From assembly GCA_001830045.1 (NCBI GenBank), contig MIDA01000055.1:1-43161 (forward strand): a stretch of 43,161 nucleotides of DNA, read 5' to 3'. The position numbers and the translations under genes were made by a program. Below the pieces are notes generated by a model. That model did no database searches. It saw only the letters and a list, made by a program, of their open reading frames with translations, and was not told the origin of the DNA. The DNA is from Tenericutes bacterium RIFOXYA12_FULL_35_10 (GTDB lineage Bacteria > Bacillota_I > Bacilli_A > Acholeplasmatales > Acholeplasmataceae). Below, piece by piece: positions 1 through 43,108 of this stretch; within the stretch, counting starts at the first letter, position 1, and each line of letters begins with the position of its first letter.

Positions 1-330
1 CGTGCCATCTTCAGGAATCGCAATCATAAATAAAAGTTTTGCATCTTTACCATCCATCGCATCAAAAGGAATACCTTCATCACTTCGTGCAAAAATAACA
101 GATGGAATGATCACATGTTTTGATTTCGCATGTGGGATAGCTATCTGATAGCCAATTCCAGTTGACATGATGGATTCTCTTTCATAGATATCTTTTAAAA
201 ATCCTGATAAATCATTTATCGCTTTTTCTTTTAACAAGATATGTGCCATTGATTCAATCGCTTCTTGTTTGGTTTGTGCTTTTAAATCTAATGCAATATA
301 ATTTTGTCGAATCAAATCTTGGATAACCAT
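1..330 (-). CDS. Fructose-type PTS EIIA domain, N-terminal part of a gene cut by the window edge
   Basis: The 110 visible codons begin at an ATG and run off the left edge, so this is an incomplete gene. They encode a PTS EIIA domain of the fructose/mannitol (PtsN-like) type. His67 in the motif AIPHAKS is the expected phosphoryl-accepting residue, preceded by the family-typical STGIG turn at residues 56-60. The start is supported by AGGAG seven bases upstream, lying inside the last codons of fruK; only one base separates the two genes. In many Firmicutes such an EIIA is the first domain of a fused fructose EIIABC (fruA), and the link to fruK favours that here. A stand-alone EIIA cannot be excluded because the downstream sequence is missing. 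Confidence 0.85.
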   Translation of the reverse strand, partial: MVIQDLIRQNYIALDLKAQTKQEAIESMAHILLKEKAINDLSGFLKDIYERESIMSTGIGYQIAIPHAKSKHVIIPSVIFARSDEGIPFDAMDGKDAKLLFMIAIPEDGT

Positions 331-37313: not shown

Positions 37314-37622
37314 TTATTTTTTAAGTACGATATCAATACCTGATGGAAGGTCGATATCCATTAATGCACTGATTGTTTTTGGATTTGGATCAACAATTTG
37401 AATTAATCTCTTGTGCGTTCTACGTTCGAATTGTTCACGTGAATCTTTGTTAACGTGTGGTGAACGTAAAATTGTGAAGATTTCCTTTTCTGTTGGAAGA
37501 GGAATTGGTCCTTGAACAGTTGCTCCCGTTCTTAGTGCACTTTCAACAATCTTTTTCGCAGCTTGATCAATTAATCTGTGATCGTAAGCCTTTAAACGAA
37601 TCTTGATAACATCTTTTGCCAT
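37314..37622 (-). CDS. rpsJ: 30S ribosomal protein S10 (NusE)
   Basis: S10 (102 residues) is in the 30S head and also acts as NusE with NusB and NusG in transcription. The start [16 protein letters not shown], the loop [29 protein letters not shown] and the end [15 protein letters not shown] are conserved. AAAGGAG lies seven bases before the ATG. It is the first gene of the 25-gene-plus ribosomal supercluster. Confidence 0.98.
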
Positions 37623-37754
37623 TTTAATAGCTCCTTTCGCCTATAATCCTGTATAGACTTGCTCCATGGAAAAACCCGACATCATGACAACGGCTATCCG
37701 TGTGTCAGCAACCTTCCATTTCACAGCCCCTCGCATTTACACACGAGCGTTATT
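37623..37754 (-). ncRNA. Structured leader of the S10 operon
   Basis: About 130 bases of untranslated RNA separate the promoter from rpsJ. Two pairings are visible: CGTGTGT near the 5' end with ACACACG about 40 bases later, and the competing GACACACGG with CCGTTGTC around an ATAG loop (one bulged C). They share the ACACACG segment, so two alternative folds are possible. A GGAAGGTTGCTGACAC segment recalls ribosomal-protein leaders of Firmicutes S10 operons. No terminator with a T-run was seen. A regulatory role, for instance by L4, is inference. Confidence 0.5.
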
Positions 37755-37783
37755 ATTATATAAGAAAAGCCAAGATATTGCAA
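37755..37783 (-). promoter_or_regulatory. Promoter of the S10-spc-alpha supercluster
   Basis: TTGCAA (37778-37783, -35) and TATAAT (37755-37760, -10) are exactly 17 bases apart on the minus strand. The -35 box lies inside the terminator hairpin of the upstream gene, so the two operons are packed with no spare DNA. No other strong promoter was seen inside the cluster. Confidence 0.75.
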
Positions 37784-37810
37784 CCCTTATGTGCAATTTT
37801 CTTGGCTTTT
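37765..37810 (-). terminator. Terminator after the ROK-Enzyme I-like operon
   Basis: AAAAGCCAAGA (37765-37775) pairs with TCTTGGCTTTT (37800-37810), extended inward by TTGCA/TGCAA. On the minus strand the 3' arm ends in TTTTCTT. It begins ten bases after the Enzyme I-like gene stop. Confidence 0.8.
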
Positions 37811-37819
37811 ATATCTTTT

Positions 37820-39637
37820 TTATTCGTTATTGTTCTCAGAATCTTCTGGATCCTCGTTTTTTTCTTTATCATCTTTTTTGTTCTCTTCTTCAAGCTTTTT
37901 TTGCTCTTCGAGATGCTTTTTATAAAGACGATAACGTTTTTTAAACTTTGCAGGATCTTCTGCCTTCTTCTTTAAGTTTCTGTAAAACTCTGTTCTTGCA
38001 ATATCTTCATAGTAGACACCAACGTATTGACCACGTCGACTGAAATAGTAATCTATAACATCATAAATATGGTTTGTTGAAGATGCCGGAACCATGAACT
38101 CTCTGTATCCTGCAATGATGAGTCTATGTAATATACTTCTTTCTTGAGCGCAATGACCCGAAATTATACATCTCTGTTTAAAACTTCTCAGTTTCATAAT
38201 GTAACGCGTATATTGTAAATCTCGATAAATATTCGATTCATTGATGGTATTGATTTCGACTTCATCTCTTGAAAATACGGTATGTTCTACATAAGAAGCC
38301 ATTAAGGAGTTTAAATTGATCACAAAATCATCAAGATACTTTAAAGCTTCCATTTCATACATTGCTTGTTTTGTGTCATACTCGTATGAGACTCTTACTT
38401 GATTTGTTTGATCTCTTCCCTCAACCATACATTCTATATGATACTTCCATAAATCATAGTCAAATTCAAATTCCAAATTTGGTATTAGTATAGATATTTT
38501 CTTTTCTGGGTATTGCTCGGAAACATCAGCAATCGCATTTGCAAATGGTTCAACATACTCTGGGTAATCTCGAAGTATGTCAAACTGATTTATGCCTATT
38601 AATTCTTGGGTATTAACCCACTCATTAAAGGAAATAAATCGAACAAACACTTCTTCACCTTTAAAATTTTTTAATATATAATGAAATCTCTCAACCCATT
38701 CATTATATGTTAATGACTTACCTTTTGATGCAACGACAATATCCGTTTGATAGAGTAGTGCAGTTTGAAATAGTGGATGGCGCTGAATTTTATCAACATC
38801 CATGTAATTAGATATCATTGCATTAATCTTAAAATTAGTTTCTTTATATGGGTTTTCAATGAAACATTGATTTTCTACGAGAGCATTATACTCTTTAAAA
38901 ACATACAGATCATCGCTTGTTGGGTTAACAATAATGGATTCATCGAGATCAACAAGTACATAATTGCCATCTTCAATGTTTTGTTCTGAATATTTAATCG
39001 GTAACTGATAATGCACAGCGTAATGGTTGAATGAAACAATTTCTTTTTTGTTGCGATAGATGATTGCTTTTAAGAAAGGACTTGGTTTAAAGAAAATTTC
39101 TTTTATAAACTTATCGATTACAATAATAAAGTCTTCTTCTATTTTATTTTGAAAATCATCTAAAAGTAAAATAGTAAACTCTGAGTTAATACGATCAATG
39201 TGGTATTGAAGAACGTGAAGCAGTTCTTTATACTCTATATCATTGACTCTTTTCAGCAAGTCATGCCTCGCCTTTTGCAAACCTACTTTAAATGAAGCGG
39301 TGACAGATCCAATGAAGTCACACTGTTGATCTAGAACTTTCATCTCAATCAACTCTATAACCTCTGGTACATCTATTGCCATTTGTATTTTCCGAGAAGG
39401 TATCTGATTAATATCCATTTTTGTTCGTCTTTCAATCAGAATACTTCTATCAAGATCATCTCGAAAAATATTAAACAATTTTTCTAAAAAGAGTTGTCTT
39501 TTCTTTTTTGAGAACGAAGCTGCATATTTTTTGGGATCAAATGCGATCGCCTTTCCATATGCCATTTTGTTAAAAAATAAATTTGTGTTTAGGTGTTCCC
39601 TCATGTTTTTTTCATTGTCTTTTAACACATTAATCAC
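37820..39637 (-). CDS. Degenerate PTS Enzyme I-like protein, probably without phosphotransfer activity
   Basis: The 605-residue protein follows the order of PEP-protein phosphotransferase (Enzyme I). It has a helical region (about 30-155), a swivelling domain ending in DGNYVLVDLDESIIVNPTSDD (223-243), and a TIM-barrel-like part (about 285-525). The active sites are changed. The GGxTSH site reads KEIVSF (198-203), so the phosphorylated His appears to be Phe. The TLDIGGDK segment reads FISFNEWV (334-341), and the catalytic Cys motif CGE reads SGH (493-495). A charged tail of about 50 residues (from ~555) is extra. Identification is by eye. The GTG start has AAAGGATG ten bases upstream. It follows a ROK kinase gene by 21 bases. 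A regulatory role is inference. Confidence 0.72.
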   Translation of the reverse strand: MINVLKDNEKNMREHLNTNLFFNKMAYGKAIAFDPKKYAASFSKKKRQLFLEKLFNIFRDDLDRSILIERRTKMDINQIPSRKIQMAIDVPEVIELIEMKVLDQQCDFIGSVTASFKVGLQKARHDLLKRVNDIEYKELLHVLQYHIDRINSEFTILLLDDFQNKIEEDFIIVIDKFIKEIFFKPSPFLKAIIYRNKKEIVSFNHYAVHYQLPIKYSEQNIEDGNYVLVDLDESIIVNPTSDDLYVFKEYNALVENQCFIENPYKETNFKINAMISNYMDVDKIQRHPLFQTALLYQTDIVVASKGKSLTYNEWVERFHYILKNFKGEEVFVRFISFNEWVNTQELIGINQFDILRDYPEYVEPFANAIADVSEQYPEKKISILIPNLEFEFDYDLWKYHIECMVEGRDQTNQVRVSYEYDTKQAMYEMEALKYLDDFVINLNSLMASYVEHTVFSRDEVEINTINESNIYRDLQYTRYIMKLRSFKQRCIISGHCAQERSILHRLIIAGYREFMVPASSTNHIYDVIDYYFSRRGQYVGVYYEDIARTEFYRNLKKKAEDPAKFKKRYRLYKKHLEEQKKLEEENKKDDKEKNEDPEDSENNNE

Positions 39638-39658: not shown

Positions 39659-40582
39659 CTATATTGTATATTTTGCAGCGCCGATAATCCCGGCGTCATT
39701 GCCTGTTTTAGCTAAGACAAATGGAATGTCAACTGTACCAAATCTAGCGAATACACGATAGTGCTTTAAAATTTGATCAATTAATATTTGTCCTGCTTTT
39801 GCAATTCCTCCCCCAATAATAATAATATCGGGGTCCAAACTTACAGATAATATACTCGCACTCAATGCGATATACTTTGCTACACGATCTAAGACTCTAA
39901 AACCTACAGGATCGTTTTTCTTAGCAGCATCGAACACATCTTTAACTGTTATGTGTTTAAAATCTATTGATGATTCATATTCATGTGACAATTCTTTTGC
40001 ATAATCTAAAATGGCTTTTGTTCCACAAATCTGTTCAAGACAACCTGATTTACCACATCCGCAAATTTCATCATGTTCAAAAATCTGCATATGGCCAATT
40101 TCTCCTCCAGCACCTGTTCTTCCTTCAACAATTTTACCATCGATAATAATACCGCCACCAACACCAGTACCCAACGTGTAGAAAATAGCGTTTTGTAGAG
40201 GTACTTCCAAAGAATAGTTTTCTCCGTATGCTGCAATATTCGCATCATTGGAAACTACAACTTTAATGTGTGGTTCGAGTAGATCTCTCATTGAAGAAAT
40301 TACATCAAGTGATTCCCATTTCAGGTTAGGGCACTTCACAACATACCCATTTTTTACTGGGCATGGTATAGCAAAACCGACGCCATGAACATCGTTATAT
40401 GTAATATGATGAAGATCTAATAGATCTGTCATGTTTTTTTTAGTGACTTCAAATATAGAAGTTGTGTGGTTATATTTAGGTGTTGAGACTTCTCTTTTAT
40501 CAACCAAACGAAATGGGTCAACTTCAAATAAACCAATTTTTATGTTAGTTCCACCAACATCAATTCCAAATGAATATTTCAT
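39659..40582 (-). CDS. ROK family sugar kinase, probable glucokinase
   Basis: This 307-residue kinase should phosphorylate glucose or a related sugar. The phosphate-binding motif is DVGGTNIK (8-15), the catalytic Asp is Asp113 in SNDAN, GTGVGGG (138-144) is the second ATP motif, and the ROK zinc site is His164 with Cys174, Cys176 and Cys181 in CGCGKSGC. There is no helix-turn-helix, so it is not a ROK repressor. GGAGG precedes the ATG at 40582; an in-frame ATG further out (40615) contains that site. It forms an operon with the Enzyme I-like gene. Glucokinase is most likely; other hexose specificity is possible. Confidence 0.88.
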   Translation of the reverse strand: MKYSFGIDVGGTNIKIGLFEVDPFRLVDKREVSTPKYNHTTSIFEVTKKNMTDLLDLHHITYNDVHGVGFAIPCPVKNGYVVKCPNLKWESLDVISSMRDLLEPHIKVVVSNDANIAAYGENYSLEVPLQNAIFYTLGTGVGGGIIIDGKIVEGRTGAGGEIGHMQIFEHDEICGCGKSGCLEQICGTKAILDYAKELSHEYESSIDFKHITVKDVFDAAKKNDPVGFRVLDRVAKYIALSASILSVSLDPDIIIIGGGIAKAGQILIDQILKHYRVFARFGTVDIPFVLAKTGNDAGIIGAAKYTI

Positions 40583-40606
40583 AGTGATTTCCTCCACACT
40601 TATACG

Positions 40607-40612
40607 ATTATA
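40607..40612 (-). promoter_or_regulatory. Candidate -10 box of the ROK kinase operon
   Basis: TATAAT at 40607-40612 on the minus strand, about 25 bases before the start codon. The -35 position shows only TTTATT. An alternative pair TTGCGA / TATAAA with an 18-base gap lies further upstream, so the exact promoter is uncertain. Confidence 0.4.
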
Positions 40613-40654
40613 CATATTTTATAATTTAAAATAAAGGTTTATCGCAAATTTTGT

Positions 40655-40685
40655 AAAAAAATAAAGCACACAAAATGTGCTTTAT
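40655..40685 (-). terminator. Terminator after the DegV-MarR operon
   Basis: AAAGCACA (40663-40670) and TGTGCTTT (40676-40683) form an 8-bp stem with a CAAAA loop, followed on the minus strand by TTATTTTTTT. It lies shortly after the MarR gene stop. Confidence 0.9.
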
Positions 40686-40700
40686 GTATTTTTTAGCATT

Positions 40701-41138
40701 TTAGTATCTTTGTTTGAAGTATTGACTAATATTTTCGAGTGATTTCATCAGTACTTCGTCTTTCTCCAAATCTAAATCCTTGAATAAAGAAGAGATCATT
40801 TCATCGTGAAATGCATCATGTATTTTTAATACATTAAAGGCACTATCTGTTAATTTCAAATATACTTTTCTTCGATCTGATTCATCGCGTTCTCTTGTCA
40901 AATGTCCTTTTTTGACTAAAACATTAACTGAAGTTGTTAATGTTCCCAAAGTGACTCGTAACTTGTGAGCTACATTTCCCATTGTTGGTATGTCTACATT
41001 TCGAACAGCTTCCAACACATGTACTTCCGTCATTGAGAGACGTACACCTTTTTGCTTCAATACGTCTGCTTCAATGCTGAGTATATGATTGAAAACATCT
41101 ACAAGCAACTCATTGATAACTTCTTTGGGTGAAACCAC
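40701..41138 (-). CDS. MarR family transcriptional regulator
   Basis: This 145-residue winged-helix regulator has the recognition region AHKLRVTLGTLTTSVNVLVKKGHL and the wing DESDRRKVYLKLT. That is the typical MarR pattern DxRxxxxxLT, here with an extra basic residue. I start it at the GTG at 41138, eight bases after AAAGGGG and just beyond the DegV stop; an in-frame GTG at 41174 lies inside the DegV gene without a site. Linked to a DegV/FakB-type gene, it could be a FabT-like regulator of fatty-acid metabolism. The three half-sites upstream of the operon are its probable target. Confidence 0.88.
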   Translation of the reverse strand: MVSPKEVINELLVDVFNHILSIEADVLKQKGVRLSMTEVHVLEAVRNVDIPTMGNVAHKLRVTLGTLTTSVNVLVKKGHLTRERDESDRRKVYLKLTDSAFNVLKIHDAFHDEMISSLFKDLDLEKDEVLMKSLENISQYFKQRY

Positions 41139-41151
41139 TTTAACAACCCCT

Positions 41152-42003
41152 TTATAAGACAATATACCCGACACCTAAAGTACCTGGACCTGCATGTGCT
41201 CCGACAACGGGTGTTAAAGGCACCAATTCAACAGTTATATCAGGACGGAATGATTGAATTTGTTGTTTAATCTCTTGTGCTTTATCTAGGTTATTAGTGT
41301 AAGCAATAAACATGATTACGTTTTTACCATCGACATCATGCTTAACAACTTCAAGAAGGCGTTGTTGAGCTTTACTGGTCGTTCTAATTTTTTCAAATGG
41401 AACTAGACTTCCATCACGTTGAACATGAAGAAGTGGCTTAATTTTTAAAAGCGTGCCTAAGAATCCGCTAGTTGCAGATAATCTTCCATTCTTAACAAGG
41501 AACTTCAACGTATCAACTAAAACATAGATATATATATTATCTCTTATTTTTTCTAATTTATCAATAATCTCGCGAGTTTTATGACCACTTTTAATCATTT
41601 TGATTGCTTCAAGAACAAGAAAAGCCTCACCGTATGAAACGCTTCTAGAATCTATTACATATACATTAATTCCAGGTACCATATCTTTTGCAAGTACAGC
41701 ACCTTGATAGGTTCCACTAAGCTTTGAAGAAATAACAACAGCAATTACATCAGTATAACCTTCATCTTTTAGTTCTTCATACACACTAGCAATCTTTCCT
41801 GTTGAAGTTTGTGATGTTGAAACATCAATGTCTGGATTCGCTTGGATTATGTCGTAAAATTCTTTTGCTTGAATATCAACATAGTCTTCATATTCTTTTC
41901 CACCCAAGTTTAATGTGGAACGAATCATTTTTACTGGATAATCCAATTTCATGTAATCAACGCCTGAATTGCCACAAACAACTAAACCTATTTTTTCACT
42001 CAT
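41152..42003 (-). CDS. DegV family fatty-acid-binding protein
   Basis: The 283-residue protein has the two-domain DegV/FakB fold. TSQTSTG (about 62-68) and SSKLSGTYQGA (about 92-102) line the fatty-acid head-group pocket, and the C-terminus ends with VVGAHAGPGTLGVGY, the typical His/Gly loop. In Firmicutes these proteins present exogenous fatty acids to the kinase FakA. A fakA gene is not in the window. GGAG lies a few bases before the ATG. It is the first gene of the operon with the MarR regulator; a role in exogenous fatty-acid use would fit a lipid-requiring Mollicute, but that is inference. Confidence 0.92.
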   Translation of the reverse strand: MSEKIGLVVCGNSGVDYMKLDYPVKMIRSTLNLGGKEYEDYVDIQAKEFYDIIQANPDIDVSTSQTSTGKIASVYEELKDEGYTDVIAVVISSKLSGTYQGAVLAKDMVPGINVYVIDSRSVSYGEAFLVLEAIKMIKSGHKTREIIDKLEKIRDNIYIYVLVDTLKFLVKNGRLSATSGFLGTLLKIKPLLHVQRDGSLVPFEKIRTTSKAQQRLLEVVKHDVDGKNVIMFIAYTNNLDKAQEIKQQIQSFRPDITVELVPLTPVVGAHAGPGTLGVGYIVL

Positions 42004-42096: not shown

Positions 42097-42774
42097 TTAT
42101 GTATAATTTTGAATCATTTCAAGTTGTTTCATTGCGTGTATCTCGTCTTGATATTTGATGTGATGCATAATAAATTGCGATAGCAGATTAATTTCTCTAT
42201 TATTATATTCAATATTTTCTTCATTAATTCTTTTGTATATTCGATCATACTCGGGTCTATATACAAGCACATAATTTACAACTACCACACTAGAATTTAC
42301 CATGTTGGCTAAGACCTGTCTATGTGTTATCGAATCTTGAAGTTTCTTTGTATATCTTTCTTCACTACGCTTTTCATCTTGATTAAACATTCCAAACTCA
42401 ATTACAATAAGTAATCTATCATAAACAATAAGATAATCTGTTCTCATATGATTCCCAAAAACGAGTGGATACTCCATTAAGATCTTAAATTTCTCACCTT
42501 GGATACCTTTCTTGAATAACAGGTTAACCATCCTTCTCATAATTAGAAGAGTGTCCATCCAAGTTATTACTTCCTCTTCTTTTAATGGCCATATAGTCAA
42601 CTTCTTTGAAACAAATGAACTCTTCAATTGCTGAAAGAATTCATTTTTTCGATATATCTCAACACGATCTTTTAGTAATTGCTTTTCAATTCGCCACCCA
42701 ATATTCTCCAACGCTTCAGTAAAGTGGTAAAAAGAATTAATATGATCAAACTTATGCATACACACAACTTCCAT
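42097..42774 (-). CDS. Hypothetical protein, possible nuclease-like fold
   Basis: I do not recognise this 225-residue protein. GAGGTGA lies seven bases before the ATG, supporting a real gene. The central part MRTDYLIVYDRLLIVIEFG looks like the Asp-x(n)-Glu strand pair of PD-(D/E)xK nucleases, followed by a helix with a QxxxY-like arrangement (YTKKLQDSITHRQVL). The usual Lys after the Glu is not present, so activity is doubtful. The rest is helical and rich in Met, Tyr and Lys. It stands downstream of the tRNA cluster, after its terminator, with no partner gene. AT content looks slightly higher than in its neighbours. Confidence 0.6.
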   Translation of the reverse strand: MEVVCMHKFDHINSFYHFTEALENIGWRIEKQLLKDRVEIYRKNEFFQQLKSSFVSKKLTIWPLKEEEVITWMDTLLIMRRMVNLLFKKGIQGEKFKILMEYPLVFGNHMRTDYLIVYDRLLIVIEFGMFNQDEKRSEERYTKKLQDSITHRQVLANMVNSSVVVVNYVLVYRPEYDRIYKRINEENIEYNNREINLLSQFIMHHIKYQDEIHAMKQLEMIQNYT

Positions 42775-42867: not shown

Positions 42868-42943
42868 TGGTGGCTCCGGGCAGAATTGAACTGCCGACAC
42901 AAGGATTTTCAGTCCTTTGCTCTACCGACTGAGCTACAGAGCC
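42868..42943 (-). tRNA. tRNA-Phe (GAA)
   Basis: The 76-base minus-strand gene folds as a cloverleaf with acceptor GGCTCTG/CGGAGCC (one mismatch-type pair), discriminator A and an encoded CCA end. The anticodon loop CTGAAAA gives GAA, so it reads UUU and UUC codons. It is the last tRNA of the cluster before the terminator. Confidence 0.95.
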
Positions 42944-42949
42944 TAATAA

Positions 42950-43025
42950 TGGCGGTCCGGACGGGATTTGAACCCGCGATCTCCTGCGTGACAGGCAGGC
43001 ATGTTAACCCCTACACCACCGGACC
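42950..43025 (-). tRNA. tRNA-Asp (GTC)
   Basis: The 76-base minus-strand gene has acceptor GGTCCGG/CCGGACC, discriminator G and an encoded CCA. The anticodon loop CTGTCAC gives GTC, reading GAU and GAC codons. Six bases separate it from tRNA-Phe and six from the initiator tRNA. Confidence 0.96.
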
Positions 43026-43031
43026 GTATTT

Positions 43032-43108
<77 letters not shown>

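Follow-up and report, generated by a model that had tools for sequence, protein, structure and literature searches.

An apparently catalytically dead Enzyme I-like protein of Acholeplasmataceae, a degenerate member of a second Enzyme I lineage

The closest described counterpart of the protein analysed here is PTS Enzyme I (EI, PtsI; TIGR01417, E. coli structure 2hwg), which it resembles in domain order, predicted fold, a near full-length profile match of its family and ancestry. Pyruvate phosphate dikinase (PPDK) and PEP synthase share with it a swivel domain and a PEP-binding barrel. A third system is the EINtr of Brucella melitensis, which belongs to a regulatory, incomplete PTS according to its description (PMC2937029); its likeness is to intact relatives of our protein that occur with HPr and hardly any permease.

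We analysed a stretch of 43,161 nucleotides from an Acholeplasmataceae genome (Tenericutes bacterium RIFOXYA12_FULL_35_10, contig MIDA01000055.1), called the window below, that encodes an Enzyme I-like protein (EIL). With moderate confidence, we interpret the window EIL as a degenerate orthologue of a second, order-specific EI, which would now have a PTS-independent scaffold or sensor role in its C-terminal barrel. Across one bacterial family, an enzyme of central metabolism seems to have become non-catalytic, and the altered EI is retained even in some genomes without recognisable HPr, its usual partner.

Predicted fold and active-site columns of the window EIL

The EIL reading frame lies on the minus strand, starts with GTG and encodes 605 residues without interruption. 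Its features are as follows.

37820..39637, minus strand: EIL, Enzyme I-like protein of 605 aa, predicted to be catalytically dead (open reading frame, profile-profile comparison with EI, AlphaFold, Foldseek)
39026..39049, minus strand: phospho-His loop position, residues 197-204 (KKEIVSFN), with no His in the column (alignments)
38615..38641, minus strand: equivalent of EI RTLDIGGDK, reading RFISFNEWV, residues 333-341 (alignments)
38153..38161, minus strand: equivalent of EI CGE, reading SGH, residues 493-495 (alignments)
37823..38017, minus strand: charged C-terminal tail, residues 541-605, with 18 K/R and 19 D/E (composition, AlphaFold)

The window EIL sequence alone is insufficient to reveal its relationship to EI. 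Its best Pfam match is PF02896 (E 0.08, below the cut-off), while NCBIfam returned no EI model and, as its best hit, a partial match to a homoaconitase small-subunit model (E 0.0044, 16.5 bits, cut-off 230). A sequence search of the PDB gave no match, and no relative turned up in the viral contigs scanned. The match to EI becomes significant because relatives are added: a profile of 27 EIL family sequences (A1, which leaves out the fragments L025, L028 and L029, a second hit in genome G036 and the hits in G033 and G007) matches the canonical EI of the same family with an E-value of 6e-35 over 499 columns in a profile-profile comparison, covering residues 17-531 of the window EIL. The profile search proposed in the earlier note on this DNA is thus negative for the protein by itself, but positive for its family. 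TIGR01417 (PTS EI) is matched at E <= 1e-3 by 22 of the 27 members, all of them far under its cut-off and the window EIL not among them, and all 16 PDB chains found by the A1 profile at E <= 0.01 are EI-type (best 2.7e-29). PF02896 was detected in 21 of the 27 members versus one for PF05524, the HPr-binding N-terminal domain, which is the least recognisable part of EIL by Pfam.

The AlphaFold model of the window EIL (mean pLDDT 83.6, pTM 0.80) contains a helical portion, the strands of a swivel domain, a linker helix and a barrel of eight strands, with low confidence in the final residues of the tail. In a Foldseek search of the PDB it matches E. coli EI 2hwg best (E 2.6e-18, 560 columns, TM 0.52/0.55), and PPDK is the next enzyme in the ranking. 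The predicted model supports a full-length EI fold with the EI domain order, and the alignments show all three motifs lost, as the earlier note had described for a 605-residue protein with an added acidic and basic tail, here placed at residues 541-605 of a minus-strand gene.

We mapped the named EI residues by motif onto the window genome's own ptsI, presuming the usual names and roles of His189, Arg296, Arg332, Arg358, Lys340, Glu431, Asn454, Asp455, Arg465 and Cys502. The motif segments of the window EIL start at residues 229 (VDLDESIIVNPT), 334 (FISFNEWV) and 493 (SGH). Two alignments agree that the phospho-His column holds Ser202. The previously noted replacement of TSH by VSF is therefore correct in that no His occupies the site, but it is one residue off, as it would have placed the column at Phe203. 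His205 and His209 are close to the column and neither lies in it; the EIL alignment of the window's family is gappy in this loop. The profile alignment bears out the replacement of TLDIGGDK by FISFNEWV and of CGE by SGH: Arg alone is retained between RTLDIGGDK and RFISFNEWV, and the active-site Cys is replaced. Neither a phospho-His nor a Cys occupies its expected column and, as read from the alignments, the catalytic residues for PEP-dependent phosphorylation of HPr are absent from the window EIL. As to PEP binding, another earlier suggestion, most of the PEP-pocket residues are replaced in the window EIL and the Arg332 and Asn454 positions are retained; the Arg465 position is ambiguous in the alignment of the window's subclade, and this column was not relied on for that subclade.

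An old lineage and its PTS context

EILs were compared across the window's family (f1, Acholeplasmataceae) and two sister families of the same order (f2 and f4). In a 69-sequence alignment, His and Cys are both present in 22/22 canonical EIs, 9/9 f2 EILs and 4/5 f4 EILs; a phospho-His or Cys is found in 0/33 f1 EILs. An alignment-free search of 41 f1 EILs (the 33 aligned and eight further) detected none of the three motifs, with a sensitivity of 19/22 EIs for the His loop and of 21/22 EIs, 8/9 f2 EILs and 3/5 f4 EILs for the Cys motif. Some His lies within eight columns of the lost phospho-His in 18 of the 33 f1 EILs and at the column in none, and four of the six members of the window's subclade share a His about seven residues past the lost column. 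From their residues, the sampled sister-family EILs look catalytically complete and would be active; an alignment of ten intact rows (A4) left out L092, L097, L102 and L105 of the 14 sister-family EILs.

A tree rooted on EI separates EIL from canonical EI (SH-aLRT 100) and joins the f1 EILs in a single clade (SH-aLRT 100) on a long branch of 1.27, requiring two changes from intact to dead. When the active-site columns and two long rows were removed, the topology and the changes stayed the same and support for f4 went down to 59. These trees were built with a quick method and contain long branches, for which L108 and L109 were left out of one of them. The window genome also carries an intact ptsI on another contig (L042: GGQTSH, TLDIGGDK and CGE), the second copy for which the earlier note had proposed a search. 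On this phylogenetic evidence, the window EIL belongs to a separate second EI lineage and did not arise by recent duplication of the ptsI of its genome. The notion that a dead paralogue has been retained in another role survives as far as the lost motifs and the signs of purifying selection go, but the paralogue is an old separate lineage.

The PTS context differs by family. HPr was found in all 55 f2 genomes and an EI-type match at E <= 1e-40 in 50 of them, above the TIGR01417 cut-off only in G122. Across the three EII families searched, EIIA_2 and EIIA-man were found in 0/55 f2 genomes and the PF02378 EIIC in 2/55. The intact f2 EILs (L091-L098 and L101, nine aligned) are short and usually the sole EI match. 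By gene content, f2 looks like it has a regulatory, almost permease-free PTS, possibly driven by EIL, and we found no description of this type of PTS in the open-licence literature searched. Canonical EI is also present in three of the ten f4 genomes with EIL (G150, G152 and G153). One of these, G150, combines canonical EI with an intact EIL, showing that a canonical EI does not force EIL loss. Of the 50 f1 genomes in which EI is matched at E <= 1e-40, 38 also have EIIA_2.

A dead EI could act as a decoy within the PTS that binds canonical EI, HPr or EIIA, transfers no phosphate and dampens the phosphorelay. The EIL model has an EI fold with an N-terminal helical domain, and the window genome has, beside canonical EI, four HPr matches together with PTS EIIA and EIIC matches. 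However, EIL is retained in four genomes in which no HPr match passes the family cut-off (G015, G016, G017 and G147); G015 has one partial match of 14.5 bits. The first three, all from one genus, gave no EI match at E <= 1e-3 and were likewise negative for EIIA_2, EIIA-man and PF02378, and each of them keeps a short EIL beside rpsJ. Independently, the f4 genome G147 has a dead EIL and a ROK kinase with no HPr. The poorly recognisable N-terminal domain is apparently missing from short EILs of 359-393 aa, whose match is limited to the C-terminal half of the profile; those of the HPr-free genus score merely 35-73 bits, so their orthology call leans on gene position. Since EIL is retained in these four genomes, neither phosphorylation nor binding of HPr can be its function everywhere. 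The earlier proposal of HPr or EIIA binding is thus not supported as a general function, and we judge the decoy quite improbable, although EIL may have a PTS role in HPr-bearing species. In G010 and G030 (completeness 90% and 84%), we found HPr and a dead EIL and detected no EI.

Our preferred reading, a PTS-independent role of a degenerate second EI, would proceed as follows. The ancestral type of EIL would be the catalytically complete form seen in the sister families; in f2 it is probably the sole EI feeding HPr, in a PTS nearly without sugar permeases. At the base of f1, EIL would have lost the phospho-His, GGDK and Cys, a plausible loss since a canonical, transport-type EI could phosphorylate HPr. 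The remainder would be a non-catalytic function of the C-terminal barrel, independent of EI and HPr, with EIL serving as a scaffold or as a sensor for a protein or small-molecule partner.

Gene neighbourhood, distribution and selection

The window gene is preceded by a ROK-family kinase gene and followed by the S10 operon, within a syntenic region that contains the following features.

41152..42003, minus strand: DegV/FakB-type protein, syntenic, upstream (Pfam and NCBIfam)
40701..41174, minus strand: FabT-like MarR regulator, syntenic, upstream (NF050133, 108 bits, under the cut-off of 200)
40661..40685, minus strand: terminator-like hairpin separating the ROK gene from fabT (consensus scan)
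39659..40615, minus strand: sugar kinase of the ROK family, upstream of EIL with a gap of 21 bp (PF00480, 2.6e-60; TIGR00744, 232 bits, under the cut-off of 260)
37758..37819, minus strand: intergenic terminator-like hairpin and T-rich DNA (GCCAAGA...TCTTGGC-TTTTCTT) directly after EIL (fold -19.7 kcal/mol, z -5.3)
37637..37732, minus strand: S10-Clostridia ribosomal leader RF03136 (37.4 bits, gathering 35.1)
37314..37622, minus strand: rpsJ (S10), first gene of the operon downstream of EIL (open reading frame, synteny)

Because terminator-like hairpins lie on both sides, the ROK and EIL genes probably form their own two-gene unit in the window, and they are probably on one transcript. The hairpin at 37758..37819 is not among the sites of a consensus terminator scan, and a promoter scan gave 31 hits versus 29.6 in shuffled sequence, which is no excess. 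As the hairpin and the S10 leader separate EIL from rpsJ, the S10 operon is probably regulated separately and the shared neighbourhood may be stable synteny alone. A function of EIL tied to the S10 operon was set aside on account of this intervening hairpin and leader RNA.

Other genes of the region were also recorded. A 225-aa protein (42097-42774, minus strand) with no significant Pfam or NCBIfam match is kept upstream of degV-fabT-ROK-EIL in many relatives, and three consecutive tRNA genes (42871-43108, minus strand; Rfam) lie at the contig end. The contig start cuts through a PTS EIIA_2 domain at window positions 4-315 on the minus strand, which matches PF00359 over profile positions 2-105; profile positions 91-142 are matched on contig C69, adjoining a PTS EIIC match. 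Given this split match and its EIIC neighbour, genes for a PTS EIIA-EIIC pair are probably located close to this ribosomal region.

Genome counts from the large searches are among the matches listed or tallied. The single window protein found an EIL homologue in 32 of the 88 f1 genomes, and all searches combined found EIL in 44. It is present in 20/20 genomes of the window's genus and in 0/29 of another genus (g11), which we take to be Phytoplasma. This genus, whose genomes are very small, accounts for 29 of the 44 f1 genomes in which EIL was not found, and several of the 44 are incomplete; EIL is clearly dispensable in some genomes of the family. The A1 profile has matches in 117 of the 160 genomes of the order, a count that includes true EIs. 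A search for the intact-EIL range yielded 24 matches of at least 463 bits in 395 genomes of the class, all in f2 or f4, and the next match was a normal-length EI at 374.8 bits.

EIL lies between ROK and rpsJ in f4 and mostly in f1, and seldom in f2, among the fetched loci. We found rpsJ 64-531 bp downstream of EIL in all 42 f1 loci with downstream DNA (two of the 44 are without such DNA). A comparison of named loci covered the best 80 of 542 relatives. Among these 80, EIL precedes rpsJ in 25 of the 28 loci with an L3 at least 64% identical to that of the window (L111-L138) and in none of the remaining 52, some of which have less than 1 kb of upstream DNA. The three exceptions are L125 (contig end), L137 and A. 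equifetale (L134), where the EIL position is a 457-bp gap with no open frame. Separately, the MAG Zod_Metabat.963 contains two differing degV-fabT-EIL-rpsJ loci (L111 and L120), probably from two species in one bin, and G036, with two EIL/rpsJ loci, was taken as a mixed bin.

The regular neighbour raises the possibility that EIL serves the ROK kinase as an accessory or regulatory subunit, co-transcribed with it and joined to it in hexose phosphorylation. ROK adjoins EIL in 27 of the 39 decidable f1 loci (five are undecidable, and one of the 27 neighbours, in L215, is a weak 46-bit match) and in 5/5 f4 loci, where short overlaps of the two genes occur; the pair is bounded by terminator-like hairpins in the window, and G147 retains both ROK and a dead EIL without HPr. 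Yet EIL stays in place though ROK is missing from its position in 12 of the 39 decidable f1 loci, including that of A. laidlawii, where EIL is present with no adjacent ROK, and ROK adjoins EIL in merely one of nine sampled f2 loci. The expectation that relatives would carry the same gene beside a ROK kinase thus holds for most f1 and all five f4 loci, but not for the others, and a PTS-ROK link, previously guessed, is not supported as the general function of EIL. We regard the kinase-subunit explanation as possible, if on balance unlikely. As side observations, the other eight f2 EILs lie away from ROK and some adjoin PHP-domain, phosphodiesterase or AbrB/MazE-like genes.

Peloplasma aerotolerans (L113) retains EIL on a contig that ends 169 bases upstream of it, leaving an adjacent ROK undecidable. 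Its genome paper reports that glucokinase is absent (PMC11122141).

The EIL gene evolves faster than its neighbours: between the window and its nearest relative, EIL is 41% identical, compared with 85% for ROK and 94% for FabT (in part), a difference that could mean weakened constraint. IQ-TREE codon models put the omega of EIL at 0.077 in the window's clade and, in three further clades, at 0.083, 0.068 and 0.071, against 0.039-0.050 for ROK and 0.049-0.081 for L3; with dS saturated for almost every pair, these values are approximate and model-dependent. For L030/L031, the sole pair with unsaturated dS, the dN/dS of EIL is 0.074 (NG86), 0.077 (ML) and 0.103 (YN00), and that of ROK is 0.070, 0.050 and 0.052, respectively. 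These are signs of purifying selection on EIL, and a pseudogene is unlikely.

Could EIL be a relic in slow decay that no longer has a function? The lost motifs, shortened forms and fast divergence would fit, as would its absence from many f1 genomes and from its A. equifetale position, and the frame is split in strain zrk7 (Mycoplasmatota; L128, 4815-6482) into 441 and 96 residues. Nevertheless, EIL frames are open across highly diverged genomes with an omega of about 0.07-0.08, the position is kept at 42/42 loci, and the family has acquired conserved residues of its own, described below. We consider a relic highly improbable.

Conserved barrel residues and comparison with known systems

Residues were counted in 21 aligned dead EILs of f1, the window's subclade of six left out. 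The Mg-ligand Glu is retained in all 21, and a basic residue occupies the Arg296 position in 17 of them and the Arg465 position in 19. The dead EILs have gained a His (21/21), a second His (19/21) and a Trp (20/21) that are not usual in EI or intact EIL, and the second His sits in a short insert absent from the 13 intact EILs and 22 EIs used. Two Glu by the old pocket occur in 18/21 and 19/21 dead EILs and already in 4/13 and 7/13 intact EILs. The dead EILs also have a C-terminal RGKYxGV-like segment. In the window EIL, the Trp (W397) and two Gly of this segment are kept, while R478 and C490 occupy the new His positions and the Glu column holds Asp.

These retained and new residues, and the presence of the C-terminal half in the forms of 359-393 aa, point to the barrel as the working part. 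One possibility, which we hold to be rather unlikely, is that the dead barrel was re-armed for a new chemistry or ligand in most of f1, the window's subclade excepted, as residue conservation might suggest; if true, EI would have turned into another enzyme or a metabolite sensor. Within our preferred interpretation of a PTS-independent scaffold or sensor, the fast branch of the window EIL and the replacement of most of its pocket residues make a scaffold likelier than a PEP sensor for this protein. Active-looking orthologues at the same gene position in a sister family make the change of function directly testable.

Among the described systems, the EINtr of B. melitensis (PMC2937029) differs from the window EIL in that the latter is without catalytic residues. 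The f2 system differs from that regulatory PTS in having no EIIA_2 or EIIA-man match in 55 genomes, and scores in the intact-EIL range are confined to one order in the class sample. Compared with PPDK and PEP synthase, EIL is without the nucleotide-binding domain, as the remainder of the protein is a short N-terminus and a tail, and the dead EIL family sequences match EI models and EI chains exclusively. The window EIL differs from PTS Enzyme I itself in being without the phospho-His, GGDK, the Cys and most PEP and Mg residues, in its charged tail and in its fast evolution.
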